A stretch of 62,596 bases of DNA, taken from an uncultured Blautia sp. (GTDB lineage Bacteria; Bacillota; Clostridia; Lachnospirales; Lachnospiraceae). The notes under the pieces are model-generated. The model had not been told where the DNA came from. It did not search any database and worked only from the letters and a program-made list of their open reading frames with translations. Location: positions 1 through 62,596 of the forward strand of contig CAKRPO010000009.1 in the NCBI GenBank assembly GCA_934378195.1, in the 5' to 3' direction. The first letter of the stretch is position 1; each line of letters starts with the position of its first letter. Both the position numbers and the translations under genes were made by a program. This document shows, one piece after another, positions 27,226 to 56,368 of the stretch.

Positions 27226-28587
27226 ATGAATTTACAGGGAAAAAAAGTGCTGGTATTCGGTTCTGGCAAGAGTGGAATCGGAGCAGCAGAGCTTCTCGCA
27301 AAAGTAGGAGCGAGACCTGTCATTTATGATGGAAACAAAGATCTGGACAAAGAAGCTGTCAAAGCAAAGCTTCCGGACTGTAAGGATGTAAATGTATATG
27401 CAGGAGAGCTTCCGGCAGAGGTGCAGAAGAGTCTTGACCTGGTCGTGTTAAGTCCTGGTGTACCGACAGACATTCCGGTCGTAAAGAGCTTTTATGAGCA
27501 GGGACTCCCGGTATGGGGCGAGGTAGAGCTGGCATACCGTACTGGTAAGGGCAGAGTACTGGCAATCACCGGTACCAATGGAAAGACGACAACGACTGCT
27601 CTTCTTGGCAAGGTCATGAGGGATGCCGAGGATTCGGTATTTGTAGTAGGTAATATTGGAACACCATATACATCCAAGGCACTGGAAATGAAAGAGGATT
27701 CCACGACAGTGGCAGAAATCAGCAGTTTCCAGCTGGAAACGATCGAAGAATTTGCACCAAAGGTAAGTGCAATCCTCAATATCACAGAAGATCATCTGAA
27801 CAGACATCATACAATGGAAGAATACATTCGTGTCAAAGAGCTGATCGTTAAGAATCAGACGGCGGATGACTTCTGTATTCTGAATTATGAAGATGAAGTG
27901 CTTCGTGAATTCGGTAAGCATATCGTTCCGAAGACTGTTTATTTCTCCAGCGTGAGAAAGCTGGATGAAGGAATCTATCTGGATGGAGATCTGATCGTTC
28001 TGAAGACAGCACAGGAAGAGATTCCTCTGGTACATACAGGAGAGCTGAAGCTTCTGGGACAGCACAATTACGAGAATGTAATGGCTGCATCTGCGATGGC
28101 GTACTATGCAGGTGTTCCGGTAGAGAGTATCCGTAAGAGTATCTGTGAATTTACAGCAGTTGAGCATCGTATCGAATATGTGACCGAGAAAAATGGTGTT
28201 GCCTATTACAACGATTCCAAGGGAACCAACCCGGATGCTGCAATCAAGGGAATCCAGGCCATGAACCGTCCGACTCTGCTGATCGGTGGCGGATACGACA
28301 AAGGCTCCAGTTACGATGAATGGCTGCAGGCATTTGACGGTAAGGTGAGATACCTTGTACTGATCGGTCAGACACGTGACAAGATTAAAGAGGCAGCAGA
28401 ACGCCTTAAAGTATGCCCTTGCATCTTGTGTGAAAATCTGGAAGAGGCAGTTCAGGTATGTGCCGAAAAGGCAAACCCGGGAGATGCAGTGCTTCTTTCA
28501 CCTGCCTGCGCAAGCTGGGGACAGTTTGACAATTATGAACAGCGTGGAGATATGTTCAAGGAATATGTAAGAGCTTTATCTCAGTAG
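27226..28587 (+). CDS. murD: UDP-N-acetylmuramoylalanine-D-glutamate ligase
   Basis: Adds D-glutamate to UDP-MurNAc-L-Ala. ATP loop GTNGKTT starts at residue 116, followed by the central Mur-ligase HNxxN region (GQHNYENVMAA) and NDSKGTNPD with the C-terminal ATP-closing domain. AAGGAGGAAA precedes the ATG. The final codons lie inside the left arm of a 109-bp repeat element, which therefore supplies the stop codon. Confidence 0.97.
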   Translation: MNLQGKKVLVFGSGKSGIGAAELLAKVGARPVIYDGNKDLDKEAVKAKLPDCKDVNVYAGELPAEVQKSLDLVVLSPGVPTDIPVVKSFYEQGLPVWGEVELAYRTGKGRVLAITGTNGKTTTTALLGKVMRDAEDSVFVVGNIGTPYTSKALEMKEDSTTVAEISSFQLETIEEFAPKVSAILNITEDHLNRHHTMEEYIRVKELIVKNQTADDFCILNYEDEVLREFGKHIVPKTVYFSSVRKLDEGIYLDGDLIVLKTAQEEIPLVHTGELKLLGQHNYENVMAASAMAYYAGVPVESIRKSICEFTAVEHRIEYVTEKNGVAYYNDSKGTNPDAAIKGIQAMNRPTLLIGGGYDKGSSYDEWLQAFDGKVRYLVLIGQTRDKIKEAAERLKVCPCILCENLEEAVQVCAEKANPGDAVLLSPACASWGQFDNYEQRGDMFKEYVRALSQ

Positions 28588-28684
28588 AGAAGACGCCCAC
28601 CTCTTTCAGGTGGTGAGTAATAGCAAATATGTCTCGGTGAGAGTCCAATCTCCGACTGAGATAAACGATCCGCGAGGATGCGCA
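28576..28684 (+). repeat. 109-bp structured repeat, copy 1
   Basis: About 93% identical to 56260-56368 (8 differences in 109). End arms TTATCTCAG (28576-28584) and CTGAGATAA (28656-28664) are perfectly complementary. An internal hairpin CACCT-CTTTC-AGGTG lies at about 28599-28613, and a conserved tail CGCGAGGATGCGCA follows. It begins inside murD and ends just before a terminator, at the spot where ftsW and murG sit in many Firmicutes. Neither RNA nor mobile-element identity is known to me. Confidence 0.8.
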
Positions 28685-28690
28685 AGACAG

Positions 28691-28729
28691 AGCCAGACTT
28701 CTGTGATGTATGACAGAGGTCTGGCTTTT
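28691..28729 (+). terminator. Terminator after murD
   Basis: AGCCAGACTTCTGT (28691-28704) pairs with ACAGAGGTCTGGCT (28713-28726), a near-perfect 14-bp stem followed by TTT. The T-run is short, so readthrough into murA is possible. Confidence 0.7.
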
Positions 28730-28755
28730 GTAGTTGCTGCAGGTATTTTGACAAA

Positions 28756-28782
28756 GTTGCTGTGAACGGAGTGAACAGTAAC
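28756..28782. repeat. GTTRCTGT palindrome copy
   Basis: Full-length member: arms GTTGCTGT and ACAGTAAC around GAACGGAGTGA. It supplies an in-frame GTG (28762) that extends the murA reading frame but is unlikely to be the real start. Confidence 0.75.
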
Positions 28783-28830
28783 CGGCTTTTGCATATAGTA
28801 ACAGTAAGAGACCCTGTAGGAGTGGATCGT

Positions 28831-30135
28831 TTGGATGAAATTCACGTGATTGGGGGAAACTGTCTGAAAGGCAGCATAACAGTGCAGGGGTCAAAAAATA
28901 CGGTGCTGCCGATGATGGCGGCATCTCTGCTTCAGGAAGAAATCTGTGTCCTCAGAGACTGTCCGCGTATTTCAGATGTTTTTTGTATGGAAGAGATTCT
29001 GAGGATGCTGGGAGTTGCCACATGGTGGAACGGTCATGATCTGCACCTGGACTGTCGTATGGTGACTGGAACGGAAATCTCATCAGAGTATACAGGGCGA
29101 ATGCGCTGTTCGGTGATTCTTCTCGGAGCACTTCTTGGAAGAATGCAGCAGGGCGTGATCGGGTATCCTGGCGGCTGCGTGATCGGGGAGCGGCCGGTAG
29201 ATCTTCATCTTTATGCACTGAAATGTCTTGGTACAGAGATCAGGGAGAAAGAAGGCAAGATTCATGCGAGCTGCAAGAAACTGAAAGGAAATGAGATCGT
29301 TTTTCGAAAAAGAAGTGTAGGGGCGACGGAGCAGGCTTTGCTTGCGGCAGTCCTGGCAGAAGGAGAGACGGTGATCAGAAACTGTGCAAAAGAACCGGAA
29401 GTTGTCTGGCTGTGCAGATTTTTGCGAAAGATGGGAGCGCAGATCAGCGGGGAAGGTGAGGAATGTATTCGGATCCAGGGCGTTTCCTCACTTCATGGAG
29501 TGCAGATGGAGATTCCGGCAGACCGGATCGTGACGGGAACGTATCTATGTGCGGCTGCAGCAACCCGGGGAAAGATTACAGTCACAAATGCTCCGGAGGG
29601 GGAACTGGATGCTTTCCTTGAAGTATATCGCAAAATGGGTGGACAATATGAATGGAACAGTGGTAAACTAATAGCGGATGGCTCCGGGATTCGATTTCCG
29701 GTCCCTTTTGTGGAGACAGAAGCCTATCCGGGTTTCCCGACAGATCTGCAGTCACCACTGCTTGCGGTGCTGGCAACGATCCGTGGAGAAAGTCATATAA
29801 GAGAAAATATATTTGAGAACCGTTTTAAGATCTGTGGTGAACTTGCACAGATGGGAGCTGTCGTAGTACCGGAGGGAAGGAACGTCCGGATCACAGGAGG
29901 TAGGCTGCATGGAGGCAGGATGCGGGCAGAAGAACTGCGCGGTGGAGCGGCACTTATGATTGCGGCTCTTGCAGCAGATGGGAAATCTGTGATAGCAGGA
30001 AGTTCGTTTATCCGGAGAGGATACGAAGATATCTGCAGAGATCTGAGAATGCTTCATGCGGATGTTTATGAATCAGATCATGCAGAAGAAGAAGAAGAAG
30101 AAGAAGAACGGTTTGACCATAGAGGATACAGGTAA
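28831..30135 (+). CDS. murA: UDP-N-acetylglucosamine 1-carboxyvinyltransferase MurA
   Basis: First committed step of peptidoglycan synthesis: transfers enolpyruvate from PEP to UDP-GlcNAc. With the TTG start at 28831 (TAGGAG about eight bases upstream), catalytic residues fall at K22, N23 and C116, nearly the standard K22/N23/C115, which supports this start over the GTG at 28762. PGGCVIGERPVDLH surrounds the cysteine. Length is 434. The C-terminus has eight consecutive Glu from a GAA run (30085-30108), absent from typical MurA. It may be one of two MurA paralogues. Confidence 0.93.
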   Translation: MDEIHVIGGNCLKGSITVQGSKNTVLPMMAASLLQEEICVLRDCPRISDVFCMEEILRMLGVATWWNGHDLHLDCRMVTGTEISSEYTGRMRCSVILLGALLGRMQQGVIGYPGGCVIGERPVDLHLYALKCLGTEIREKEGKIHASCKKLKGNEIVFRKRSVGATEQALLAAVLAEGETVIRNCAKEPEVVWLCRFLRKMGAQISGEGEECIRIQGVSSLHGVQMEIPADRIVTGTYLCAAAATRGKITVTNAPEGELDAFLEVYRKMGGQYEWNSGKLIADGSGIRFPVPFVETEAYPGFPTDLQSPLLAVLATIRGESHIRENIFENRFKICGELAQMGAVVVPEGRNVRITGGRLHGGRMRAEELRGGAALMIAALAADGKSVIAGSSFIRRGYEDICRDLRMLHADVYESDHAEEEEEEEERFDHRGYR

Positions 30136-30144
30136 TAGATTTTT

Positions 30145-31392
30145 ATGAGAACATCCAATTACAGGAAATTTAAAATAACCAAAAAACAGAAAAAAATGCT
30201 TGCAGGGGCAGCTGTTGCAGCTGCTCTGGCCGGCGTTGTTTTTTTCTTTGCTTTTTTCCATGTTTCCAGGGTAGAAGTGATGGAAAGCAGCCATTATACG
30301 AAGGAAGAGCTGGAAGAGATGGTCCTGACAGGTGCATTTTCATCCAACTCCATATTGGCGCCGATCACGTGCTCCAGAAATCATGTACAGGATGTACCAT
30401 ATATTGATTCTTTTTCGGTAAGCAGATCAGGACGTAATTCAATTGTGATCAGTTTTCGGGAGAAGAGTGTGGTAGGATGCATCCCATATCTGGACAGTTA
30501 TATTTATTTTGACCGAAATGGAATCTTTGTTGAGGGTGACAAGGACAGGAATGAATCGGTTCCTTATTTTGAAGGCATTCAGATAAAGAAAGTGGTTATG
30601 AATGAGAAGCTTCCGATCAAGAATGCAGTGCTGAATACAGCGGTAGCACTTTCTACGATCTTTGCCAAAAATAATCTTCAGCCGGATTATGTTCAGCTGG
30701 AAGAGGATTCCACGATCGATCTGATCTATGGTGATATTACGGTAAAGCTTGGCAAGGACAAATACCTTGAGGACAAGATGAGCAGAACAGTGGCAATCCT
30801 TCCGCAGATCAGTGGTGAGAAGGGCATCCTTCATATGGAGAATATCACAGAGAGTTCCAAGACAGTGACTTTTGAGAAAGAGGAAGAAGAGGTGACTGCA
30901 GAGAACTGGACCGGAGGTTACGATGAGAATGGTGACTATACCGGTGACGGTGAATATGATGAGAATGGCAAGTATGTAGGTGCGAAGCCAAAGACAGCAC
31001 TTGATTATGCGAAAGAGCAGTGGATCGGCGGCTATGATGAAGAGGGCGACTACACAGGATCGGGTGAATACGATGAGAATCTGAATTATGTAGGACCGGA
31101 ACCGACGCAGGAACTTATTGACAGCTTTGGTGACTGGACCGGAGGATACAATGAGTCCGGTGGATTTGACGGTGTCAGCGAATACGATAAAGACGGCAAT
31201 TATGTCGGACCAATGCCTGATAGTGCGGGAACCTCCGATACTTCTTCAGATCAGGATGAAAGCACGGGGGATTCGTCAGAGGACAATTCCGATGACAGTG
31301 GCGATTCCTACGATGAAGAATCAGACAGTTCGAGTGAAGACGGATATGACAGCTCGGATGAGGACTACAGTGATGAGGAATACTATGAGTAA
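30145..31392 (+). CDS. divIB: Cell division protein DivIB/FtsQ with C-terminal repeats
   Basis: Bitopic divisome protein: basic N-terminus, transmembrane helix about residues 19-41, then a POTRA domain and a beta domain to about residue 245. Beyond the normal end, residues 255 to about 355 carry three copies of a 38-residue unit (Trp at 255, 293 and 331) with consensus W-T-G-G-Y-D-E-x-G-D-Y-T-G, E-Y-D-E-x-x-x-Y-V-G, then an acidic Ser/Asp/Tyr tail. Position between murA and ftsZ supports the name. In Bacillus, DivIB works with FtsL and DivIC outside the membrane. Confidence 0.88.
   Translation: MRTSNYRKFKITKKQKKMLAGAAVAAALAGVVFFFAFFHVSRVEVMESSHYTKEELEEMVLTGAFSSNSILAPITCSRNHVQDVPYIDSFSVSRSGRNSIVISFREKSVVGCIPYLDSYIYFDRNGIFVEGDKDRNESVPYFEGIQIKKVVMNEKLPIKNAVLNTAVALSTIFAKNNLQPDYVQLEEDSTIDLIYGDITVKLGKDKYLEDKMSRTVAILPQISGEKGILHMENITESSKTVTFEKEEEEVTAENWTGGYDENGDYTGDGEYDENGKYVGAKPKTALDYAKEQWIGGYDEEGDYTGSGEYDENLNYVGPEPTQELIDSFGDWTGGYNESGGFDGVSEYDKDGNYVGPMPDSAGTSDTSSDQDESTGDSSEDNSDDSGDSYDEESDSSSEDGYDSSDEDYSDEEYYE
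30907..31248 (+). repeat. 114-bp coding tandem repeat in divIB
   Basis: Three units start at 30907, 31021 and 31135, exactly 114 bp apart. Each encodes Trp-x-Gly-Gly-Tyr followed by two turn-rich Y-D-E motifs and Y-V-G. The third unit is the most diverged. Confidence 0.85.
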
Positions 31393-31472
31393 CCGGGCTG
31401 CTGTATACAGTGTCAGAGCAGATGTGAATGACGAATAATAGTGAAAAAAGTATAAAAAAACAAAAATAGTAG

Positions 31473-31501
31473 TTGATTAATTCGAGAAAAAAATATATGA
31501 T
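31473..31501 (+). promoter_or_regulatory. ftsZ promoter
   Basis: TTGATT (31473-31478), 17 bp, TATGAT (31496-31501) in an AT-rich gap. A separate ftsZ promoter inside the cluster is common. Confidence 0.65.
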
Positions 31502-31515
31502 ATATTTATATGCAG

Positions 31516-31535
31516 CCTGATACACTGATATCAGG
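31516..31535 (+). other. Leader hairpin before ftsZ
   Basis: CCTGATA (31516-31522) pairs with TATCAGG (31529-31535) over a 6-base loop, ending about eight bases before AAGGAGG. It could protect the mRNA end or tune initiation; this is inference. Confidence 0.45.
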
Positions 31536-31555
31536 TAAATAAAGGAGGAAGTACA

Positions 31556-32722
31556 TTGTTAGAGATTATGTCAAATGAAGCTGAGTCCTCTGCAAAGATT
31601 ATTGTAATCGGTGTAGGCGGGGCTGGTAATAATGCAGTTAACAGAATGGTGGAAGAGGCCATTGGTGGAGTTGAATTTGTTGGTGTAAATACTGATAAAC
31701 AGGCTCTGACACTTTGCAAAGCTCCAACAGTACTTCAGATTGGTGAAAAGATTACAAAGGGCCTTGGCGCCGGTGCACAGCCGGAAGTTGGTCAGAAGGC
31801 CGCTGAAGAGAGCATAGAAGAAGTAAAACAGTTGATCGAAGGCGCAGATATGGTATTTGTTACCTGTGGAATGGGCGGTGGTACCGGTACAGGTGCAGCT
31901 CCTGTTATCGCAGCAGCAGCCAAAGAGATGGGAATCCTGACCGTTGGTGTCGTAACAAAGCCTTTCCGTTTTGAAGCGAAGACACGTATGAACAATGCTC
32001 TTTCCGGAATCGAGAATCTGAAGAAAGCTGTTGATACATTAATTGTTATCCCGAATGACAAGCTGCTTGAGATCGTGGATCGCCGTACAACTATGCCGGA
32101 AGCACTCCGCAAAGCTGACGAAGTTCTGCAGCAGGCTGTACAGGGAATCACAGACCTGATCAATCTGCCGGCACTGATCAACCTCGACTTCGCAGATGTT
32201 CAGACCGTCATGACAGATAAAGGAATCGCACACATCGGTATTGGTGAAGCAAGAGGAGATGACAAGGCTATGGAAGCTGTTCAGCAGGCAGTATCTTCTC
32301 CACTTCTTGAGACAACCATCAAGGGTGCTACACATGTCATCATCAATATCTCAGGAGATATCTCTCTTATGGATGCCAATGACGCAGCAAGTTATGTACA
32401 GGAACTCACCGGCGAAGATGCAAACATCATCTTTGGTGCTATGTATGATGATTCTGTTGCAGATTATGCAAGAATCACAGTTATCGCAACCGGATTATCC
32501 GATACAGCTGCAAAGACTACACCATTTGGTACAAGAAGCAATACCACACCGTTCGGTGTACGTAAACCGGCAGCAGGTACATCTGCACCGGCGTCCAGTA
32601 CTATGAGCATGCCGAGCTTCAGCCTGCCGACTATGAATGGCGGTACTTATACAGGTAAAGTTCCGACAAGCACTGTACAGAAGAAGGATATCCAGATTCC
32701 GGATTTCCTGAGAAACAGATAG
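31556..32722 (+). CDS. ftsZ: Cell division protein FtsZ
   Basis: Tubulin-like GTPase that forms the Z-ring. It has [13 protein letters not shown] near the N-terminus, the tubulin signature GGGTGTG starting near residue 107, and a variable Ser/Thr/Pro linker ending in the conserved C-terminal peptide [10 protein letters not shown], which binds FtsA/SepF-type partners. The TTG at 31556 is chosen because AAGGAGG lies seven bases upstream; the next ATG is three codons later. A bidirectional terminator follows. Confidence 0.97.
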
Positions 32723-32743
32723 GATTTTGATAAAAATGCATAC

Positions 32744-32780
32744 AAAAAGAGACGCTGTTTTTTGGACAGCGTCTTTTTCT
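32744..32780. terminator. Bidirectional terminator, ftsZ / DUF1540
   Basis: The A-rich left arm ending in CGCTGT pairs with ACAGCG-TCTTTTT, with T-runs readable on both strands. It serves ftsZ (plus) and the convergent DUF1540 gene (minus). Confidence 0.85.
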
Positions 32781-32788
32781 TTGACAGA

Positions 32789-33112
32789 TCAGCATTTACA
32801 TGAGAAGGTGTTGCATTTAGTCTCATTGCAGCCATCTGTGCTGCAACCGGCTACATCGATCGCAGAAGCAGTACATTTGCACTGGTCATTATAGGTACAT
32901 TCATGAGCTTTACAGTCAATATTGATCTTTTCACATCCACATTGTCCGGCAGTACTGTTTGTCATACCGGCAGTGGCACGGTCACGGAAGCTTCCGCAGC
33001 TTGTTTCGTCTGCACGATGGGCATCGCTTCCGGTAATCTCAATATCACCTCTGGAACAGAGTTCGTTTTCGTTGTAAAGACATTTTGTAGCACTGCATGT
33101 CAGAATAGTCAT
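32789..33112 (-). CDS. DUF1540 cysteine-rich protein
   Basis: A 107-residue protein of two tandem DUF1540 modules, each with spaced cysteines (first CSATKCLYNENELC, second CKAHECTYNDQCKC), suggesting metal binding. The start is ATG at 33112, with AAGGAGG just upstream on the minus strand (33121-33127). The frame is open further to 33250, but that part covers promoter DNA. Common in clostridia; function not established. Confidence 0.85.
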   Translation of the reverse strand: MTILTCSATKCLYNENELCSRGDIEITGSDAHRADETSCGSFRDRATAGMTNSTAGQCGCEKINIDCKAHECTYNDQCKCTASAIDVAGCSTDGCNETKCNTFSCKC

Positions 33113-33181
33113 AAATAGAACCTCCTTATAATATGATGTCATGCAGGAATAGTATCTGCAAAGATCAGAAAAATATGTGTC

Positions 33182-33228
33182 CGAAAACGTATTTACAAAA
33201 GTGTTCGAAAAAGTATTCGAAAAAAGTG
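33182..33228. promoter_or_regulatory. CGAAAA direct repeats next to the infC promoter
   Basis: CGAAAA occurs at 33182, 33206 and 33218, in contexts CCGAAAACGT, TTCGAAAAAGTA and TTCGAAAAAAGT. Spacings of 24 and 12 bp place them directly upstream of the infC -35 and in front of the DUF1540 gene. A shared operator is possible; no regulator is identified. Confidence 0.4.
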
Positions 33229-33229
33229 C

Positions 33230-33258
33230 TTGACATTGGCAGAGAGACATGATATCTT
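33230..33258 (+). promoter_or_regulatory. infC operon promoter
   Basis: Consensus TTGACA (33230-33235), 17 bp, TATCTT (33253-33258). Transcription would start about 250 bases before infC, leaving room for the leader. Confidence 0.85.
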
Positions 33259-33264
33259 TAACAA

Positions 33265-33438
33265 GTACGTTAAGAAAACAAAGCAGAGTTTCACTCTCAC
33301 CTCAGCGCACATGGATGCGGCTCGGGTTGATATTTCGCAGCAGTCTGATCACATAGATCAGAGCAGGCACAGAGATACGATTTGATTTCGTTATCGCTGG
33401 ATATCATAGAGTGTGGAAACTTTCCATACTCTTTTTTG
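33265..33438 (+). ncRNA. infC leader attenuator (L20-leader type)
   Basis: The region has no gene. It ends in a strong intrinsic terminator: AGAGTGTGGAAA (33408-33419) pairs with TTTCCATACTCT (33421-33432), then T-rich DNA. In Firmicutes, infC-rpmI-rplT operons are commonly controlled by a leader bound by ribosomal protein L20, with early termination. Position, length and terminator fit that. I did not verify the L20-binding fold. Confidence 0.7.
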
Positions 33439-33507
33439 TTTTCATAAGTATGAGGGTGACAGAGTGTCAGGTTTATCATTTATTTACATGTATGGAGGTG
33501 TACTACA

Positions 33508-34014
33508 ATTAGCAATTTAATGATTAACGAACAGATCAGAGACAAAGAGGTACGTTTGATTGGACCGGATGGGGCACAGCTCGGAATCGTTTCTTCCAGA
33601 GAAGCTTTTGCAAAGGCACAGGAAGCCGGACTTGATCTTGTTAAAATCGCACCGCAGGCAAAGCCGCCGGTTTGTAAGATTATCGACTACGGCAAGTATC
33701 GCTATGAGCTTTCCCGTAAGGAAAAAGAAGCTAAGAAAAAACAGAAGACAATTGACATCAAGGAAGTACGTCTTTCTCCAAACATTGATACCAATGACCT
33801 GAAGACGAAAGTCAATGCAGCAAGGAAATTTCTCTCCAAGGGAGATCGTGTCAAAGTTACATTACGTTTCCGCGGAAGAGAAATGGCACATATGGCAAGC
33901 AGCAAGCATGTACTTGATGATTTTGCGGAACTTCTTGCAGATGTGGCAGTTGTTGAGAAGGCCCCGAAGATTGAAGGCAGAAGCATGACAATGTTTCTCA
34001 GCGAAAAGCGTTAA
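33508..34014 (+). CDS. infC: Translation initiation factor IF-3, ATT start
   Basis: Binds the 30S subunit and checks start-codon pairing. I start it at ATT (33508, 168 residues): GGAGGTG lies seven bases upstream, and the next in-frame ATG (33520) would be 19 bases away. infC uses AUU in E. coli and B. subtilis, letting IF-3 repress its own translation. Both IF-3 domains are visible, including IDYGKYRYE and GDRVKVTLRFRGREMAH. Confidence 0.94.
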   Translation: MSNLMINEQIRDKEVRLIGPDGAQLGIVSSREAFAKAQEAGLDLVKIAPQAKPPVCKIIDYGKYRYELSRKEKEAKKKQKTIDIKEVRLSPNIDTNDLKTKVNAARKFLSKGDRVKVTLRFRGREMAHMASSKHVLDDFAELLADVAVVEKAPKIEGRSMTMFLSEKR

Positions 34015-34100
34015 GCAGTTATCACAGACAGCGTACTTTTGTACGTGTTCTTGATAATAAGAAATAAAAAACAGTACCACGAATTAAGGAGGAAATAATT

Positions 34101-34298
34101 ATGCCTAAGATTAAAACTTGTAGAGCAGCAGCAAAACGTTTCAAAAAAACCGGAACTGGAAAGATCATGAGAAATAAAGCTTATAAGAGCCATATCTTAA
34201 CAAAGAAATCTCAGAAGAGAAAGAGAAATCTGAGAAAAGCTACTGTTGTTGATTCTACAAACCTTAAGAACATTAAGAAAGCACTGCCTTATTTATAA
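34101..34298 (+). CDS. rpmI: 50S ribosomal protein L35
   Basis: Highly basic 65-residue protein starting [20 protein letters not shown], the family signature. AAGGAGGAAATAATT precedes the ATG. Second gene of infC-rpmI-rplT. Confidence 0.98.
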
Positions 34299-34713: not shown

Positions 34714-34755
34714 GAAGACCGTACTGTTCTTAGGGAAAGTGCGGTCTTTTCTTTT
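34714..34755 (+). terminator. Terminator after rplT
   Basis: AAGACCGTACT pairs with AAGTGCGGTCTT over an 11-base loop, followed by TTCTTTT. The repeat at 34754 starts in the T-run. Confidence 0.85.
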
Positions 34756-34806
34756 ACAGGAAATTGCGCTGTAATGTTCCAATAAAGCAAAAAACTTCAT
34801 GGAAAT
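34754..34806 (+). repeat. TTACRG hairpin repeat, copy 1
   Basis: TTACAG (34754-34759) pairs with CTGTAA (34769-34774), then ATGTTCCAATAA and an A-rich part ending near TTCATGG. Similar to 58791-58842, with a short relative at 47107. It directly follows the rplT terminator. Confidence 0.65.
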
Positions 34807-36332: not shown

Positions 36333-36412
36333 AAAAGAAGGCTGTGTCCGCTGCAGAAAGACAACGGTTGGTGGAAAAAATACAAAATATTAAATAAATA
36401 TAAAATTTTCCC

Positions 36413-39736: not shown

Positions 39737-39738
39737 CT

Positions 39739-47060: not shown

Positions 47061-47105
47061 AAAGGAACGGTACTCTGGAGAATTCCATTGAACCGTTCCC
47101 TTTTT
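47061..47105. terminator. Bidirectional terminator, YerC / amidase
   Basis: GGAACGGT (47064-47071) pairs with ACCGTTCC (47092-47099), with AAAA on the left and TTTTT on the right. It serves the YerC gene and the convergent amidase gene. Confidence 0.85.
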
Positions 47106-47106
47106 G

Positions 47107-47130
47107 TTACAGGAAATTGCGTTGTATTGT
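47107..47130 (+). repeat. TTACRG hairpin repeat, short relative
   Basis: TTACAGGAAATTGCG followed by TTGTATTGTTT matches the first part of the copy at 34754. It too directly follows a terminator T-run. Confidence 0.5.
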
Positions 47131-48997: not shown

Positions 48998-49726
48998 ATG
49001 AAGAAGAGATTTTCCACAATGCAGAGGTCAGGAGTCCTGAAACGTATTTTCGTATTTATGATCGCGCTTGCGCTTGCAATGCCGATGACGGTACAGACAG
49101 GATGGGCGGCAACCACTTCCTATACAGTCACGGTAGCGGACGGATATCTGGCGCTTCGTAATGCAAAGGCATACGATGACAAGAATGAAATCGGCAAGCT
49201 TTATACAGGTGATACCGTCGATGTGACTGATTCCAGCGGTAGTACTTACTGGTATGTATATGCTTCGCGCCTTAAAAAATCCGGGTATGTGAATCGTAAA
49301 TATCTGGCAAATGCATCGAGTGAGCGTACCGTAAGTGTCAAGAGCGGATATCTTGCACTTCGCAATGCGAAGGCATACAAGTCTTCGAATGAGGTTGCAG
49401 AGCTGTATACAGGCGATAAGGTCCAGATTGCAGATGCAAGTGATGGCACTTACTGGCTGGTATATGTACCGGGACTTGGAAAAGGTGGATATGTTAATAA
49501 AGACTACCTCGTAAAGGCATCGGAAGTTGTCACAAAGACAGTAAAGGTAAAGAGTGGATATCTTGCACTCCGCAATGCGAAGGCCTATGATGATGCAAAT
49601 GAGATCGGACAGCTGAATACCGGAGATACTGTTCAGGTTCAGGATTCCAGCGGAAGTACATACTGGTATGTATATTCCCCGAAGCTTGGCAAGAGCGGTT
49701 ATGTAAACAAAAATTACCTGCAGTGA
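48998..49726 (+). CDS. Secreted protein with three bacterial SH3 repeats
   Basis: A 242-residue protein: signal peptide to about residue 37 (GWA then ATT), then three near-identical SH3b repeats of about 65 residues starting near 41, 110 and 178. Each contains G-Y-L-A-L-R-N-A-K-A-Y and ends in a G-Y-V-N-x-x-Y-L motif. SH3b domains usually bind peptidoglycan. AAAGGAGGG precedes the ATG; the frame is open to 48944 without a site. No catalytic domain. The divergent amidase suggests a joint wall role (inference). Confidence 0.88.
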   Translation: MKKRFSTMQRSGVLKRIFVFMIALALAMPMTVQTGWAATTSYTVTVADGYLALRNAKAYDDKNEIGKLYTGDTVDVTDSSGSTYWYVYASRLKKSGYVNRKYLANASSERTVSVKSGYLALRNAKAYKSSNEVAELYTGDKVQIADASDGTYWLVYVPGLGKGGYVNKDYLVKASEVVTKTVKVKSGYLALRNAKAYDDANEIGQLNTGDTVQVQDSSGSTYWYVYSPKLGKSGYVNKNYLQ

Positions 49727-49741
49727 TGCAGGTAATTTTAT
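49709..49741. terminator. Bidirectional terminator with the stop codon in its loop
   Basis: AAATTACCTGCA (49711-49722) and TGCAGGTAATTT (49727-49738) form a perfect 12-bp stem with loop GTGA. The loop's TGA is the SH3 gene stop codon. Serves the convergent DUF1836 gene too. Confidence 0.85.
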
Positions 49742-49759
49742 TGTTGGCTGAACCGGTCT

Positions 49760-50380
49760 CTATTTCTTTTTTTGTTTCGGATTAGTATCTGTAGTGGCAC
49801 GAAGATCGTCGATCATCTGCTCGATCAGCATCTTCTTGACATAGACATCGAAACTGAGAAGACAGATAAAGGAAAATAATTTCAGGAAATCCCTGTCCTC
49901 TTCGGGCGCATCCTCAAAAGTGCCCTGTGCGATCTCATATCGTTCCATCAGTTCTTTCTGAAGGGCTTCAATCTGTCCCTTTTCCATACTGAAAACTTCA
50001 TTATAGATTGCGGTCAGATTCATGGCCTCTTCTGATTTGAAATATTTGTCGGTCAGTGGTCCGAGGAGTGTCTGGATATCGTTGATCGATAAAATGTTTT
50101 TGAAATAGTAGATAAAGATCAGAACCAGAAGATGTTCTCTGGAATAGCGCTTCTTTTCAGGAGAAGGAAGCAGATTATTCTTGGCATAATTGTTGATCAT
50201 GGTCTTGGTAAGAATCTTGTCATCTTCGTAGCGCTTGGAATGTGCAAGCTGTGCTTCCATGAAGGTAGTTACCTGGTCCATATAAAGATCTATATTGGGA
50301 ATATCCTCCGGCTTTATATAGCCGATCCTGGATACACGTTCCAGGATATTGCGGATCATAGATTCTGTATTTACTGACAT
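49760..50380 (-). CDS. DUF1836 protein
   Basis: A 206-residue helical protein. The part TKTMINNYAKNNLLPSPEKK with YSREHLLVLIFIYYFKNILS is the DUF1836 pattern and resembles a MerR-like winged helix; C-terminal helices follow. AAGGAGATG precedes the start. The Lys-rich C-terminus ends by the terminator. Probably a regulator; no target known. Confidence 0.82.
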   Translation of the reverse strand: MSVNTESMIRNILERVSRIGYIKPEDIPNIDLYMDQVTTFMEAQLAHSKRYEDDKILTKTMINNYAKNNLLPSPEKKRYSREHLLVLIFIYYFKNILSINDIQTLLGPLTDKYFKSEEAMNLTAIYNEVFSMEKGQIEALQKELMERYEIAQGTFEDAPEEDRDFLKLFSFICLLSFDVYVKKMLIEQMIDDLRATTDTNPKQKKK

Positions 50381-50408
50381 AAATTCATCTCCTTTGACTG
50401 TACACCTT

Positions 50409-50437
50409 ATTATATAGTTTTAAATACTACTTGTAAA
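50409..50437 (-). promoter_or_regulatory. Promoter of the DUF1836 gene
   Basis: On the minus strand: TTTACA (50437-50432), 17 bp, TATAAT (50414-50409). Confidence 0.75.
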
Positions 50438-50501
50438 TGGTTTTTGAAAATTTTATTACATATATAATGGAGCTAATAATGGAGCTTAAATAACAAATTT
50501 C

Positions 50502-50530
50502 TTTACCATGTCTCTTGTTTCATGTATAAT
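50502..50530 (+). promoter_or_regulatory. pcrA promoter
   Basis: TTTACC (50502-50507), 17 bp, TATAAT (50525-50530). Confidence 0.65.
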
Positions 50531-50601
50531 AGAAAGACAGCATGAAAACATCAGTTCGGATTTCGGAATCCGAATGAAAGCAATAAAACAGGAGTAAAGA
50601 A

Positions 50602-52836
50602 ATGAATACGATCTATGATACATTAAATGACCGCCAGAAAGAAGCGGTCTTACATACAGAGGGACCACTTCTGATCCTCGCCGGAGCCGGATCAGGCAAG
50701 ACCAGAGTTCTGACACACAGGATCGCATATCTGATCGCAGAGAAAGGCGTGAATCCGTGGAATATTCTGGCAATCACTTTTACAAATAAAGCAGCCCATG
50801 AGATGAGAGAGCGTGTGGATAAGATTGCAGGAAGCGATGGGGGAAGTGTCTGGGTATCTACTTTCCATTCTACCTGTGTGAGAATCCTCAGACGCCATAT
50901 TGACCGTCTGGGCTATGACAATAATTTTACAATCTATGATGCAGATGATCAGAAGACCCTGATCAAAGAAATCTGTCGCAAGATGAATATTGACACCAAG
51001 AAGGTGAGGGAGCGTGCACTTCTGGCACAGATTTCTCATGCCAAGGATGAGCTTCTGACTCCGGATGAGATGGAGATGAATGCAGGTGCTGACTTTAATC
51101 AGAAGAGAGCGGCACAGGTGTATCGTGAATATCAGGCGGCACTGCACAGGAACAATGCCCTTGATTTTGATGATCTGATCTGCAAGACCGTAGAGCTCTT
51201 TCAGAATTGTGGAGATGTGCTGCAGTCTTATCAGGAGCGTTTTCAGTATATTATGGTAGATGAATATCAGGATACCAATACAGCACAGTTCAAGTTTGTC
51301 AGTCTTCTGGCATCCAGATATGAGAATCTGTGTGTAGTGGGTGATGATGATCAGTCTATTTATAAGTTCCGTGGAGCCAATATCGGCAATATCCTGGGGT
51401 TTGAGCGTGTATTTCCGAATGCAAAGGTTATCCGCCTGGAACAGAATTACCGTTCCACCCAGAATATCCTGAATGCAGCGAATGGTGTGATCGCGAATAA
51501 CACCGAACGTAAGGAAAAGACGCTCTGGACAGAGAATCCGGAAGGGGAGAAGATTCATTTCCGTCAGTTTATGAACGGTTATGAAGAGGCAGAATATGTA
51601 GTTGGAGATATTGCCAGACGTCACAGGGAAGGCGCAGCAGATTACCGCAGCTGTGCAGTTCTTTACCGTACCAACGCACAGTCTCGTCTTTTTGAAGAAA
51701 AATGCCTGCTTGCGAATATCCCGTATAAAATCGTAGGTGGTGTAAACTTCTATGCACGTAAAGAAATCAAGGATCTTCTGTGTTATCTGAAGACAGTAGA
51801 CAATGCGGCAGATGATCTTGCAGTCAGAAGAATCCTGAATGTGCCGAAGCGCGGGATCGGAGCGACAACCGTCGGCAGGATCCAGGATTATGCAGATATG
51901 ATGAACATCAGCTTTTATGATGCACTTCGTGTAGCAGAAGAAGTGCCTTCGATCGGACGAAGTTTATCCAAAGTGGACGGATTCGTTACGTTTATCCAGT
52001 CGCTCAAGAGCAAGGCACAGGCATATTCTGTATCTGAGCTTCTGGAAGAGATCATTGATCTGACTGGTTATGTGGATGAGCTGAAAGCAGAAGATACCGA
52101 GGAATCCAGAGCCAGAATTGAGAATATCGACGAGCTGATCTCCAAGACGGTTTCCTATGAAGAGGCGATGAAGGCCGAGGAGAGAGAAGCGACGCTGTCT
52201 GGTTTCCTGGAGGAGATTGCTCTGATCGCAGACATTGATTCTGTAGATGAGAATCAGGATTATGTTGTGCTGATGACATTGCACAGTGCCAAGGGACTGG
52301 AGTTTCCTTATGTTTATCTGGCAGGAATGGAAGATGGCATGTTCCCAAGCAGCATGTGTATCTTTTCCGGAGACCAGTCGGATATGGAAGAAGAGCGCCG
52401 ACTGTGTTATGTAGGAATCACCAGAGCCATGAAGGAACTGACTCTGACCAGTGCACAGCAGCGTATGGTACGCGGTGAGACACAGTATAACCGCATGTCC
52501 AGGTTTGTACGTGAAATTCCTCGAGAGCTGGTAGACCTTGGACATACCGTTACAGAGCACAAGCCAAAGATACCGGAGACAAAGTCACCGCTCAACAGTT
52601 ATCTGCAGATGAAGAAAAACTTCCACACGAAGGCATTTCAGCCACAGAATTTCAAGGTGACGAAGGCAGATACACTGGATTACGGCGTAGGCGATACGGT
52701 TCGACATATCAAATTTGGTGTGGGAATCGTCAAAGATATCGTAGAGGGTGGCAGAGATTATGAAGTGACGGTAGATTTTGATAAAGTCGGAGTCAAGAAA
52801 ATGTTTGCAGCTTTTGCGAAACTTAAGAAAATCTGA
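50602..52836 (+). CDS. pcrA: ATP-dependent DNA helicase PcrA
   Basis: UvrD/Rep-family superfamily 1 helicase (744 residues) used in repair and rolling-circle replication. Walker A GAGSGKT (28-34), DEYQDTN (220-226), GDDDQSIYKFRGA, and later LMTLHSAKGLEF and VGITRAM are all present. The C-terminal region carries the PcrA/UvrD tudor-like end (GDTVRHIKFGVGIV). No ligase gene follows, unlike the Bacillus pcrA-ligA order. Confidence 0.96.
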   Translation: MNTIYDTLNDRQKEAVLHTEGPLLILAGAGSGKTRVLTHRIAYLIAEKGVNPWNILAITFTNKAAHEMRERVDKIAGSDGGSVWVSTFHSTCVRILRRHIDRLGYDNNFTIYDADDQKTLIKEICRKMNIDTKKVRERALLAQISHAKDELLTPDEMEMNAGADFNQKRAAQVYREYQAALHRNNALDFDDLICKTVELFQNCGDVLQSYQERFQYIMVDEYQDTNTAQFKFVSLLASRYENLCVVGDDDQSIYKFRGANIGNILGFERVFPNAKVIRLEQNYRSTQNILNAANGVIANNTERKEKTLWTENPEGEKIHFRQFMNGYEEAEYVVGDIARRHREGAADYRSCAVLYRTNAQSRLFEEKCLLANIPYKIVGGVNFYARKEIKDLLCYLKTVDNAADDLAVRRILNVPKRGIGATTVGRIQDYADMMNISFYDALRVAEEVPSIGRSLSKVDGFVTFIQSLKSKAQAYSVSELLEEIIDLTGYVDELKAEDTEESRARIENIDELISKTVSYEEAMKAEEREATLSGFLEEIALIADIDSVDENQDYVVLMTLHSAKGLEFPYVYLAGMEDGMFPSSMCIFSGDQSDMEEERRLCYVGITRAMKELTLTSAQQRMVRGETQYNRMSRFVREIPRELVDLGHTVTEHKPKIPETKSPLNSYLQMKKNFHTKAFQPQNFKVTKADTLDYGVGDTVRHIKFGVGIVKDIVEGGRDYEVTVDFDKVGVKKMFAAFAKLKKI

Positions 52837-52867
52837 GTTTTTTTTGTAGCATGAAACATTATATTTT

Positions 52868-52890
52868 TCTTAAGAAATCTTAAAGTTTCT
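52868..52890 (+). promoter_or_regulatory. TCTTAA direct repeats upstream of the lipid operon
   Basis: TCTTAAG at 52868 and TCTTAAAG at 52878 are 10 bp apart and lie 15-30 bp upstream of the -35. One-turn direct repeats here are typical of OmpR-type response-regulator sites. The regulator is unknown. Confidence 0.4.
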
Positions 52891-52899
52891 GTACTGTGG

Positions 52900-52928
52900 T
52901 TGTTTTACTTCCTGAGGAATGCTATACT
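52900..52928 (+). promoter_or_regulatory. Promoter of the PAP2-flippase-pssA-psd operon
   Basis: TTGTTT (52900-52905), 17 bp, TATACT (52923-52928), with TGC before the -10 as a partial extended element. Confidence 0.7.
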
Positions 52929-52957
52929 GGATACATGAAATCTGAAGGGAGTACAGA

Positions 52958-53650
52958 ATGAAAAAGATTTTGAAAGGCCTCACGAGAATACTCCCTGCTT
53001 ATGGGATTTTTCCAGTTGTTTTTTCTTTTGTATTTAATTGTCTTGTTTATTCAGGTTCCAGAATGATCGCAGGCGGATGGCCGCATCACAATATCGAAAC
53101 TGCTGTGGATAAGGGACTTCCTTTTGTCCCACAGTTCCTGATCGTCTATTTTGGCTGTTATCTGTTCTGGGCCGTCAATTACATTCTGATTGCCAGGCAG
53201 GATCGACACAGTGTGTATCAGTTTTTTACAGGAGATTTTATATCAAGATGTATCTGCCTTGGTTTCTTTCTTTTGTATCCCACCACGAATACAAGACCGG
53301 TGATCACAGACTCAGGATTATGGAATCAGCTTGCTTTGTGGCTGTACTCGATTGATGCGCCAGACAATCTGTTTCCGTCTATTCATTGTCTGGTCAGCTG
53401 GTTCTGTTATCTGGGCATCCGCGGAAGAAAAGAGATTCCGGTATGGTATCAGAGAGTATCGATGATTATTGCGGTTCTGGTGTTTGCATCTACACTGCTG
53501 ACGAAGCAGCACGTGATCGTTGATGTGGCAGGTGGAATCCTTCTGGCAGAATTCTGTATTCGGATTGGCAGAAAGACAAATCTGTACAAGAAATATGAGA
53601 GATTTGGCAGCAGAATCGAACAGGCGATCTTAAGGATGACAGAAGGGTGA
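52958..53650 (+). CDS. PAP2-superfamily membrane phosphatase/transferase
   Basis: A 230-residue membrane protein with about six helices. Variant PAP2 motifs: NTRP, SIHC with His143 (replacing PSGH), and H185-V-I-V-D189. The SIHC form is closer to inositol-phosphotransferase-like PAP2 enzymes than to plain phosphatidate phosphatases. It heads a four-gene lipid operon. The substrate, a lipid phosphate or phospholipid head group, is inferred. Confidence 0.85.
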   Translation: MKKILKGLTRILPAYGIFPVVFSFVFNCLVYSGSRMIAGGWPHHNIETAVDKGLPFVPQFLIVYFGCYLFWAVNYILIARQDRHSVYQFFTGDFISRCICLGFFLLYPTTNTRPVITDSGLWNQLALWLYSIDAPDNLFPSIHCLVSWFCYLGIRGRKEIPVWYQRVSMIIAVLVFASTLLTKQHVIVDVAGGILLAEFCIRIGRKTNLYKKYERFGSRIEQAILRMTEG

Positions 53651-53657
53651 GCTGCTT

Positions 53658-54704
53658 ATGAAAAAAAATAAAAAAGTGATCTTCAATGGAGTATTTCTGG
53701 TCATTGTGTTTGCACTTACGATCTATGGAGTATTCCATGGCGAGGATCTGGATGCCATGATGGATGCCATCCGTAGTGCCGACAAGCGATGGCTGATGCC
53801 GGGAATCGGACTGGTGGCGTTCTTTATCTGGGGCGAGTCGATTATCATCTGGTACATGATGCGTTCTTATGGGATCAGACTTAAGAAAAGAACCTGTTTT
53901 CTTTTTTCTTCGGTAGGTTTTTTCTTCAGTTGTATCACGCCGTCTGCAAGTGGCGGACAGCCGATGCAGGCATATTATATGAAAAAGAAAAATATCTCGA
54001 TTCCGGTATCGGCGGTCATTCTGATGATTATTACGATCACTTACAAACTGGTACTGGTCGTAATTGGAATCGGAGTAGCTGTATTTGGAAGAGGCTTTCT
54101 GCATCAGTATCTGGAAGGGATTATTCCAATCTTTTATCTTGGATTGACACTGAATATTTTCTGTGTGACATTTATGACGATTCTGGTGTTTCATCCAATG
54201 CTTGCCAGGACATTTCTGGTGTGGGGACACAGTATTCTGGAGAAGCTTCACATTCTGCGACATAAGGATGGCAGACTGAAGAAGCTTGAGGATTCCATGG
54301 ATACTTACCGGGATACAGCTGCGTATCTGAAGACACATTCGAGAGTTATTGTGAATGTCATCGCTATCACATTTGTGCAGCGAATGGCGATGTTTGCAGT
54401 CACATGGTTTGTATACAAAGCGTTTTCGTTGTCAGGAACCGGATTCTGGACGGTGCTGTTTCTTCAGGCCGTAATCTCTGTTTCTGTTGATATGCTTCCT
54501 CTTCCGGGCGGCATGGGAATCAGCGAGACATTATTCCTGACGATCTTTACACCGGTGTTTGGAGCATTACTTCTGCCGGGAATGGTCCTCAGCAGAGGAC
54601 TTGGCTATTATGGGGAGCTTTTGATAAGTGCACTTTTTACGATTGTAGCACAGCTTACGATCGGTCAGGAAAGTGCACAGCAAAATAAGGAGACAAGCGA
54701 ATGA
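53658..54704 (+). CDS. Lysylphosphatidylglycerol-synthase transmembrane-domain (flippase-like) protein
   Basis: A 348-residue protein with about eight helices, of the AglD/UPF0104 family. Hallmarks are PSASGGQPMQAYYM near residue 95 and LPLPGGMGISE near 275. This matches the membrane half of MprF without the lysyl-transfer domain, so lipid flipping or a glycolipid role is possible. GGGTGAGCTGCTT precedes the ATG, and the gene overlaps pssA by 4 bp. Confidence 0.88.
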   Translation: MKKNKKVIFNGVFLVIVFALTIYGVFHGEDLDAMMDAIRSADKRWLMPGIGLVAFFIWGESIIIWYMMRSYGIRLKKRTCFLFSSVGFFFSCITPSASGGQPMQAYYMKKKNISIPVSAVILMIITITYKLVLVVIGIGVAVFGRGFLHQYLEGIIPIFYLGLTLNIFCVTFMTILVFHPMLARTFLVWGHSILEKLHILRHKDGRLKKLEDSMDTYRDTAAYLKTHSRVIVNVIAITFVQRMAMFAVTWFVYKAFSLSGTGFWTVLFLQAVISVSVDMLPLPGGMGISETLFLTIFTPVFGALLLPGMVLSRGLGYYGELLISALFTIVAQLTIGQESAQQNKETSE

Positions 54705-55378
54705 TTGGATTTTATGATTATACAGTAGTTGTTACATATATCAGCCTGATTTCATCGATTCTGGGAATGTTCTGTGCGATTGACGGGAAGCTGGAACCGG
54801 CAGTTTTCTGTCTGGCATTTTCGGGACTGTGCGATATGTTTGATGGAAAGATTGCGCGAACGAAGAAAAACAGAACGGATGATGAAAAATCTTTTGGTAT
54901 CCAGATAGATTCGCTTTGTGATATTGTCTGTTTCGGAATCTTTCCGATCATTCTTGGATACAAGCTTGGTATGTGTAAGCCATACAGCAAGGCAATCCTT
55001 GCATTTTACGGGCTTGCAGGCGTGATTCGACTGGCGTATTTTAATGTCATGGAGGCGAAACGTCAGAGTGAGACATCTGAGAATCGCAAGTATTATCGGG
55101 GACTTCCAATCACATCCATGGCAGTGATCATGCCGCTTTTGTTTGTGGCATCGGTATTTTTTCCGGGATTCCGTTATTTTGTGGGGCTGCTCCATGCAGC
55201 GATGCTGATCGTTGGCTTCCTGTTTATCTTTAATTTCCGTTTCCGCAAGCCGACCAATAAGGAACTTGTAGTGCTGGTTGCAATCGTGGCAGTGGCGGTT
55301 CTTTTTATTATGTTTTATGATGAGGCATGGTGGGCACATTACAGTACGATAAGAAAACTGAAAGGAGTTGCTCCATGA
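54701..55378 (+). CDS. pssA: CDP-alcohol phosphatidyltransferase, probably phosphatidylserine synthase
   Basis: A 225-residue membrane enzyme joining a CDP-diacylglycerol to an alcohol. The catalytic motif runs from DGKIAR (48-53) to D70-S-L-C-D74, giving the Asp set of the family. The gene directly after it encodes phosphatidylserine decarboxylase, overlapping by ATGA, so serine is the likely acceptor. Together they would make phosphatidylethanolamine. Confidence 0.9.
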   Translation: MIGFYDYTVVVTYISLISSILGMFCAIDGKLEPAVFCLAFSGLCDMFDGKIARTKKNRTDDEKSFGIQIDSLCDIVCFGIFPIILGYKLGMCKPYSKAILAFYGLAGVIRLAYFNVMEAKRQSETSENRKYYRGLPITSMAVIMPLLFVASVFFPGFRYFVGLLHAAMLIVGFLFIFNFRFRKPTNKELVVLVAIVAVAVLFIMFYDEAWWAHYSTIRKLKGVAP

Positions 55379-56253
55379 GTACTTATACGGCAGACCGAAG
55401 AGGTTATGTAGTCGAAAATGATTCCGTTCAGGACAGATTTCTGGAAAAGATGTATGGCTCTGCGATTGGCAGAGCTTTCCTTAAACCTCTTGTTAATCCG
55501 GTGCTGTCTGAGCTTGGCGGCAGGATTCTGGATACCAGAATATCGGCGCTGGCAGTTCCGGCATTTATCCGTCATGCAGGGATTAACCTGCGTGAATACG
55601 AACCGCAAAGATATCGTTCCTATAATGATTTCTTTACCAGGCAGATTCGGGAAGATGCGAGAAAGATCGATATGACACCGGAGCATTTTGTCAGTCCGTG
55701 TGACAGCAGGCTGAGCGTATATCCGATCGATGAGAAATGCTGTGTAAAGATCAAGCATACACCATATACCGTTGCGGAACTTCTCAGGAATCCTGTGCTG
55801 GCGGAGCGGTATGAGGGCGGATACCTCTGGGTATTTCGTCTATGTGTGGATGATTATCATCATTACATTTATATTGATGACGGATTTGAATCTAGACGGG
55901 TGCATATCCCGGGAGTACTGCATACAGTCAATCCGATTGCGAATGATGTGTATCCGATCTATAAGGAGAATACAAGAGAGTATGCGCTCCTTAAGACTAT
56001 GAACTTTGGTACGGTTCTGATGATGGAGGTCGGAGCATTGATGGTTGGCAGAATTGAGAATGTCCCGCTCCGTGGACGGGTAAAGCGTGGCAAAGAAAAA
56101 GGCAATTTTGCATTTGGCGGTTCTACAGTCGTTCTGATGACACAGAAGGGACGCGTGATGCCGGATCCGGATATCTTCCGTAATTCACAGTATGACATCG
56201 AGACACGTGTGCATATGGGGGAAAAAATCGGTGTCTCAGAAGTGACAGAATGA
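55375..56253 (+). CDS. psd: Phosphatidylserine decarboxylase proenzyme
   Basis: Converts phosphatidylserine to phosphatidylethanolamine. Self-cleavage at the GGST motif (Ser250) would create the pyruvoyl alpha chain; DDYHHY and HTVNP are also conserved. I use the ATG at 55375 (292 residues), which follows AAAGGAG and overlaps the pssA stop; the upstream frame to 55327 is inside pssA. Confidence 0.94.
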   Translation: MSTYTADRRGYVVENDSVQDRFLEKMYGSAIGRAFLKPLVNPVLSELGGRILDTRISALAVPAFIRHAGINLREYEPQRYRSYNDFFTRQIREDARKIDMTPEHFVSPCDSRLSVYPIDEKCCVKIKHTPYTVAELLRNPVLAERYEGGYLWVFRLCVDDYHHYIYIDDGFESRRVHIPGVLHTVNPIANDVYPIYKENTREYALLKTMNFGTVLMMEVGALMVGRIENVPLRGRVKRGKEKGNFAFGGSTVVLMTQKGRVMPDPDIFRNSQYDIETRVHMGEKIGVSEVTE

Positions 56254-56259
56254 AAATAG

Positions 56260-56368
56260 TTATCTCAGTCGAGAAGACTCCCACCTCTTTCAGGTGGTGA
56301 GTAATAGCAAATTTGTCTCAGTGGGAGTCAAATCTCCGCCTGAGATAAACGCTCCGCGAGGATGCGCA
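56260..56368 (+). repeat. 109-bp structured repeat, copy 2
   Basis: The better-paired copy. Outer arms are TTATCTCAG (56260-56268) and CTGAGATAA (56340-56348). Inner arms GACTCCCAC (56276-56284) and GTGGGAGTC (56321-56329) are perfectly complementary, around the CACCT-CTTTC-AGGTG hairpin. The tail CGCGAGGATGCGCA is identical to copy 1. It starts seven bases after psd. The 308-bp psd-to-56562 gap holds this, the hairpin below and a promoter. Confidence 0.8.

Follow-up and report, generated by a model that had tools for sequence, protein, structure and literature searches.

A modular hairpin repeat of Lachnospiraceae genomes and its likeness to the left ends of IS200/IS605 elements

Introduction

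Transposases of the IS200/IS605 family bind single-strand hairpins in a subterminal position and work on the template of the lagging strand, according to PMC6006769, and repetitive extragenic palindromic (REP) sequences are described, in PMC3733652, as palindromes of 20–40 bp. Here, we examine a hairpin-rich element that is present twice in a stretch of 62,596 nucleotides ("the window") from an uncultured Blautia sp. (contig CAKRPO010000009.1 of assembly GCA_934378195.1). Non-autonomous derivatives of IS200/IS605 elements are known as PATEs. Intergenic repeats of the BOX, RUP, and Correia types are non-coding, dispersed, and modular, like the element considered here.

We lean towards the view that the two window sequences belong to a mobile DNA element of Lachnospiraceae that is non-autonomous, present in many copies, and moved by the mechanism proposed in the Discussion. 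The repeat was found in roughly two of every five genomes sampled from this major gut family, with up to about 100 copies, and it shapes gene ends, as at the stop codon of murD in the window. It also lends itself to asking whether covariation is always a sign of RNA: its arms covary without a wobble preference, which points to DNA hairpins or template switching. In a literature search we met no account of a repeat of this kind in Lachnospiraceae; the search did not extend to preprints or to most subscription papers, so an earlier description is possible. Strings from the core and arms matched PubMed Central text only in three apparently unrelated papers with human-cancer titles (one 14-base string, once in each).

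Results

The two copies in the window

The original prediction was of a 109-bp element at 28576–28684 and 56260–56368, with 8 differences at equal length. The alignment agrees: 109 aligned bases, 92.66% identity, 8 differences, and no gap. The 109 bp are not the unit, being instead the overlap of a full copy 2 and a truncated copy 1. Copy 2 extends from 56260 to about 56442 (184 bp) and has all of the element's parts, while copy 1 ends after a 21-bp core, AACGMTCCGCGAGGATGCGCA.

The full layout is hairpin 1 (of at least three types), core, hairpin 2, and hairpin 3, which together span roughly 130–200 bp, judged by eye. In copy 2, on the + strand, hairpin 1 (56260–56347) is the long form of what we call the a-type, and its inner hairpin, GACTCCCACCT/AGGTGGTGAGT, resembles the left ends of IS200/IS605 elements. 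The nested stems that had been predicted, TTATCTCAG/CTGAGATAA and GACTCCCAC/GTGGGAGTC around a CACCT/AGGTG hairpin, are present in this copy. Next come the core, AACGCTCCGCGAGGATGCGCA (56348–56368); hairpin 2, GCGC A GTGATTCTG ... CAGAATCAC GCGC with the inner stem GTCAGC/GCTGAC (56364–56416); and hairpin 3, CAAGTC ... GACTTG, with the right end GACTTGAA (56417–56442). Our covariance model R1, which consists of the core and hairpin 2, matches 56348–56417 with 85.5 bits.

Copy 1, also on the + strand, has a long a-type hairpin 1 (28576–28663), whose first bases encode the last residues of MurD, (L)SQ, and the stop, and the core AACGATCCGCGAGGATGCGCA (28664–28684). Hairpins 2 and 3 are absent 3' of this core. 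Each copy was said to be followed by a different hairpin. Both hairpins are there, with two causes: the one behind copy 2 is its own hairpin 2, and the one behind copy 1 (28688–28731, + strand) is a hairpin with a T-rich tail that is unrelated to the element and adjoins the core because copy 1 breaks off there. This hairpin was read by eye and is unlike hairpin 2, and it is absent from the output of a strict terminator scan. On the - strand, the reverse of the copy 1 core (28670–28685) looked terminator-like in a scan (1 found versus 0.3 expected).

Folded as RNA, copy 2 has a lowest-energy structure of -44.1 kcal/mol (z = -5.41 versus shuffles) with pairings that compete with the nested stems, and copy 1 reaches -36.3 kcal/mol (z = -3.15 versus shuffles). 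The 184 nt of copy 2, folded as single-stranded DNA, gave z = -7.5.

A modular family of repeats

We scanned genome contigs for the exact core, AACGMTCCGCGAGGATGCGCA, and at least 120 stretches matched. In this exact-core set, the invariance of the 21-mer and the GNRA-type loop are imposed by the search pattern. Nearly all of the inspected copies have the core followed by a common second hairpin, GCGC, and a third hairpin. When we looked among covariance-model matches, the exact 21-mer turned up in just 7 of 62 from genome G727 and in none of the 21 from a divergent set. CTCC-loop-GGAT, allowing one change at most, is present in 59 of 62 and 20 of 21, respectively. The common feature is therefore a short hairpin skeleton and not a fixed 21-mer. 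In divergent copies the loop of the core varies in both length and sequence (GCGA, GCAA, GCTAA, GCTAT, ATAA, and others).

The a-type of hairpin 1 starts with TTTAAC or TTTATC and has long, short, and perfected-palindrome forms. The b-type has the arms ATAGGAAA...TTTCCTAT, with its start fused to a T-run, and the c-type has TATAGTAAGCGC...GCGCTTACTATA. A variable outer stem had been expected, and the variation goes further: the entire first hairpin differs among types. Both a- and b-types occur in G727, where their second hairpins differ and their cores are related. Hairpin 2 is built of an outer stem, a one-sided purine-rich bulge, and an inner stem, and several b-type third hairpins end in a T-run (by eye). 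We considered whether the TATAGTAA ends of the c-type might be the ends of a DDE transposon and rejected this, as they are inconsistent in locus L144.

Contexts near locus ends and duplicates were excluded from the counts of contexts and arms. Of 107 contexts anchored on the core, 93 have both arms; the 5' arm alone is missing in 5, hairpin 2 alone in 7, and the two together in 2. Under a rule that was partly too strict, hairpin 2 was not recognized at 17 of 144 core occurrences.

Several other arrangements were seen. Two or three b-type elements form tandem arrays, 134–191 bp apart, at L249, L261 (in G727), L106, and L127. At L091, L049, and L142, other small hairpin-rich inserts lie within hairpin 2, as if the loop were itself a target. 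Hairpin 1 has an inverted loop at L175 and is a fully perfected palindrome at L177, L351, L362, and L367, which suggests template switching inside hairpins (quasi-palindromes).

Copy number, insertion sites, and presence or absence between relatives

That this is a mobile, non-autonomous hairpin repeat, which was one of the possibilities raised originally, seems to us highly probable, given its variable and high copy number, identical copies, presence or absence between relatives, and the lack of an adjoining transposase gene. Model R1 found 2–84 copies in each of 12 genomes and 6–104 in each of five others. The genome with 84 matches (G010, reached via a locus titled Eubacterium oxidoreducens) has 37 of equal score, and all 20 of the copies that we compared share the same 70 bases. 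For empty sites, we compared a syntenic stretch of G727 and G734 (70–80% identity), in which two of the four G727 copies are absent from G734. The spans between matching blocks are 218 versus 110 bp and 253 versus 24 bp. The gap that contains the other two copies is also shorter in G734 (856 versus 433 bp).

No full-length parent that carries a protein was found in a pattern search of four genomes; the 30 places inspected, out of 65, held only element copies and truncated left parts.

The copies are mostly intergenic. Among 95 contexts (14 of them untyped), 94 have an upstream gene call, and in 70 of these the upstream gene is on the strand of the element. The median distance from the end of that gene to the core is 97–151 bases, depending on type, and 17 contexts overlap an open reading frame (ORF), by crude gene calls. 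Hairpin 1 directly follows a terminator in 21 of 38 b-type and 8 of 67 a-type copies, versus 6 of 222 shifted control positions; motifs served to assign these types, and we excluded the remaining 84 of 189 contexts. An impression of 3' truncation, which might be a sign of retrotransposition, came from a query with the 5' part, and we rejected it: losses occur at both ends.

The arms covary without a preference for wobble pairs

The element had also been suggested to be a guide-like or regulatory RNA, with stem covariation among further copies as a check. Covariation is strong. In 32 varied exact-core sequences, 93.2% of hairpin 2 cells are paired, versus 73.8% after shuffling, and 14 of 21 pairs show double changes. 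The covariation score is 0.417, whereas shuffles reach 0.111 and slid partners no more than 0.087. Further pair types are no more numerous than in shuffles (30 versus 29.3). Two divergent copies (L216 and L217) have compensated changes even in the GCGC stem. For b-type hairpin 1, pairing is likewise Watson-Crick: outside G727, five positions give 159 paired cells of 170, versus a mean of 102 and a maximum of 118 in shuffles.

If the arms were kept as RNA, then G.U pairs should be more common than A.C mismatches. In alignments fitted to the covariance model, G727 has 62 G.T and 50 A.C (p = 0.30; 60 distinct sequences of 62 matches), and the window with 99 other loci has 11 G.T and 16 A.C (p = 0.44; 82 distinct of 125 matches). 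As a control, albeit a small one, acceptor stems of 18 distinct tRNAs from the same loci have 10 G.T and 0 A.C. Because the arms covary without a wobble preference, the stems would be DNA hairpins, or arms that are re-matched by a mutational process, and not RNA. Overall, we consider it very probable that the element acts as DNA. A guide-like or regulatory RNA finds no support in the similar frequencies of G.T and A.C or in the 21 of 38 b-type copies directly behind a terminator. As for known RNA families, Rfam has no match above the gathering threshold in the window, and none at E ≤ 1 for 56200–56500.

Similarity to the left ends of IS200/IS605 elements

Genes for Y1 transposases are present in all five of the genomes that we searched. 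We chose 30 loci with insertion sequences (IS), including two pairs that are the same places twice (L156/L326 and L158/L343). A BLAST comparison of 12 a-type hairpins with 29 oriented IS loci yielded 27 hits at E 0.05, and 7 of the 12 hairpins accounted for all of them. Of these hits, 21 (or 18 of 24 without duplicates) are on the sense strand and within 320 bases before tnpA, which is about 4.9% of the strand-bases searched. The best a-type hit to an IS left end is 92% over 38 nt (E = 1e-10), and the two window copies both match left ends of tnpA elements (best E = 9e-5 and 0.001). Three of the other six hits lie about 1650 bases behind the start of tnpA in L332, where the right end could be. 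The TnpA proteins of the clade with matching left ends are homologous to the solved ISHp608 transposase and related transposases.

Judged by these matches, the a-type inner hairpin is homologous to the left-end hairpin of IS200/IS605 elements and has the same orientation. A match to a catalogued insertion-sequence end had been named as a finding that would speak against the original prediction. What we found is partial, a match of the inner hairpin to IS200/IS605 left ends. Flanks like TTTAAC or TTTATC are present at many a-type copies and at some IS left ends (by observation and with no statistic); TTTAA(C) is, we assume, the target of IS605 itself, which a literature search did not confirm.

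RAYT-like Y1 transposases occur in 57 of 299 sampled Lachnospiraceae genomes (for example, at L165 in G007, and in G062 and G584). RAYTs were considered as the partner of the element and rejected: 26 of these 57 genomes carry the element, versus 24.4 expected (p = 0.66).

Orientation with replication

The genome of G727 is 3.59 Mb, with dnaA near base 1000 and a change of skew between 1.70 and 1.78 Mb. In this genome, 98 of 104 copies are co-oriented with the replication fork, versus 296 of 365 genes (Fisher p = 7e-4). By hand count, and with the terminus assumed to be opposite dnaA, fork-wise copies number 11 of 11 in G713, 10 of 10 in G584, 6 of 6 in G114 (a seventh copy, on another contig, is outside the count), and 5 of 6 in G148. 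Between oppositely oriented genes, 13 of 17 copies follow the fork. In 97 contexts from other genomes, 73 are concordant with the local skew, which is about what gene orientation gives. Concordance is 44 of 45 with two sense neighbours and 1 of 7 with two antisense neighbours; for copies within antisense genes it is 31 of 63. We had viewed replication-strand orientation as possible proof of Y1 transposition; it is suggestive in G727, and we dropped it after the comparison with gene orientation.

Gene contexts and relics in the window

Each copy was predicted to begin at or just after a gene's stop. More exactly, copy 1 begins within the final codons of murD (27226–28587), and copy 2 starts six bases 3' of the stop of a phosphatidylserine decarboxylase gene. 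The end of murD with the element-derived stop is at 28570–28587. The window's MurD ends in ...VRALSQ, with SQ and the stop codon supplied by the element. SQ is present in two of the 40 MurD relatives that we compared (P0009 and P0010), out of 120 listed, and absent from the other 38, including P0002, which is 93% identical. We infer that the genomes of P0009 and P0010 would also carry the element. Different short extensions are seen in two relatives at a greater distance.

Half-sites at 137 and 219 were also thought to be related to the element. The latter (219–246, + strand) does match the left arm of the a-type (28 nt, 89%, E = 4e-5 to L146) and is a relic of it. The site at 137–162 (+ strand) is weaker (E = 0.065), is similar to the relic at 219, and is probably also a left-arm relic. 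Two other relics, both on the + strand and both 3' of a hairpin that looks by eye like a terminator, resemble b-type hairpin 1: 34747–34794 (E = 5e-8) and the short 47101–47123 (best E = 0.001). Weak matches at 15480–15504 and 36375–36406 were judged to be chance.

Distribution

With model R1, we found the element in 128 of 299 sampled genomes of the family, in 34 of 60 genomes of one genus, and in 10 of 391 genomes from a sample of the class (G001, G039, and G185 of these are also in the family sample). These counts are lower bounds, as the large samples were searched with stricter filters and a limited number of candidates. By title, the exact-core matches are from Lachnospiraceae or from unnamed or uncultured Clostridia. 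The names include Blautia, Coprococcus, Lachnospira, Butyrivibrio, and Agathobacter, which we take to be Lachnospiraceae; a small number of other names occur too, Sarcina sp. and Clostridium fessum among them.

Neither the 21-bp core (by exact match) nor a 21-mer from hairpin 1 was found in IMG/VR; 29 matches of a 16-mer were set aside, as they look unrelated and have no other part of the element around them. Among plasmids, a related faecal element had no match and copy 2 had one weak 28-base match. The matches in a phage collection are faecal "bacteriophage" scaffolds. Of the six that we inspected (L030–L035; MT836712, MT835472, MT835487, MT835872, MT836815, and MT839494), L032 has a lysine riboswitch and L033 has a TwoAYGGAY RNA above the gathering score, and L035 has a T-box below it, so part of this set of records may be bacterial DNA. 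The element lies at several contig ends and probably breaks assemblies.

Discussion

The family is probably best read as modular, non-autonomous, and similar to REPs or miniature inverted-repeat transposable elements (MITEs), with the window's type mobilized in trans by a Y1 transposase. The arms would act as single-stranded (or cruciform) DNA hairpins. A Y1 (HUH) transposase, acting in trans, would excise and insert a-type copies by reading the inner hairpin and the TTTAAC/TTTATC-like left flank, and the skeleton of the core would be kept since something in Lachnospiraceae binds it. Both window copies would now be immobile passengers, with the truncated copy 1 supplying the stop codon of murD. 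For the a-type, we know of no better mechanism than Y1 mobilization, and our confidence in it and our doubt are evenly balanced.

Several observations weigh against this account. For five of the 12 a-type hairpins, nothing in the IS loci matched, and the likeness to IS605 is seen for the a-type only, with none shown for the b- and c-types. Hairpin 3 had no hit in loci L156–L165 (with whole-element queries, and with some loci stopping short of the right end), and copy 2 as a whole matched none of the first 10 IS loci. Of the 30 genomes with the tnpA clade whose left ends match, 18 carry the element, versus 12.8 expected (p = 0.052), and G010, despite its 84 copies, is not among the 30. No tnpA or tnpB ORF was found beside the cores at E 1e-5 (among ORFs of L030–L155 and the window; the RAYT of L165 was not among the queries). 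The two copies at the empty sites score low (30.3 and 33.3 bits), and at that divergence the junctions are unreadable to the base. Finally, the fork-wise orientation in G727 is not separable from gene orientation.

As for why related cores lie behind unlike first hairpins, a shared DNA-binding partner is the simplest guess. A bolder proposal, which we offer tentatively and think rather unlikely, is that the core and hairpin 2 form the recognition module of a putative Lachnospiraceae-wide single-strand DNA recombinase. This module would be combined with at least three end-hairpin systems (IS605-like, terminator-abutting, and TATAGTAA-type), whose arms would be exchangeable and re-matched by template switching within hairpins.

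The repeat could instead be a functional DNA element (a transcription insulator, bidirectional terminator, or replication-polar site) that is under selection and is not a selfish mobile element. The fork-wise orientation in G727 and in four other genomes would fit such a role, as would the terminator-like reverse strand of the copy 1 core and the T-runs that end several b-type third hairpins. However, 171 of the 299 family genomes have no match, copy number ranges from 2 to 104, and there are truncated relics; and the skew concordance is near what gene orientation gives and falls away beside or inside antisense genes. We think this improbable, though less so than two other ideas.

One of these, a structured RNA (a guide, a small RNA, or a regulator in the 3' untranslated region) that spread to many genes, would explain the strong covariation and the many copies on the strand of the upstream gene, and it could draw on the GNRA-type loop of the exact-core set had the pattern not imposed this. 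Since G.T is no commoner than A.C, the core loop is not constant in divergent copies, b-type copies often lie behind terminators, and Rfam is empty, we consider an RNA very unlikely. A similarly small chance goes to a retro-copied element, like a short interspersed element (SINE), that would be primed at T-runs behind terminators, by the reverse transcriptase of a group IIC intron or a similar enzyme. Group IIC introns target sites behind terminators, and b-type copies abut terminators far more often than the control positions do. But just 8 of 67 a-type copies do so, the arms keep Watson-Crick pairing, and neither end is constantly intact (93 of 107 contexts have both arms, with losses at either side).

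Among described systems, the CGTC-tagged palindromic repeats are alike in being a palindromic family that is described, in the available part of the source, without a dedicated transposase (PMC3733652); they do not have the modular three-hairpin build of the Lachnospiraceae element. REP, BIME, and REPIN sequences with their RAYT (TnpA-REP) are, as far as the available parts of two sources go, also multi-copy intergenic palindromes that lie mostly 3' of genes (PMC3733652, PMC6006769). Unlike them, the element has no GTAG or GTGG in its core (the core alone was scanned), has no association with RAYTs, and is about 184 bp with three different hairpins. From IS200/IS605 elements it differs in a hairpin 3 that does not match their ends, in the extra module of core and hairpin 2, and in having no tnpA beside its copies. 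With these elements and their non-autonomous derivatives it shares the inner hairpin of the a-type, in the same orientation, and, at many a-type copies and some IS left ends, a TTTAAC/TTTATC-like left flank.

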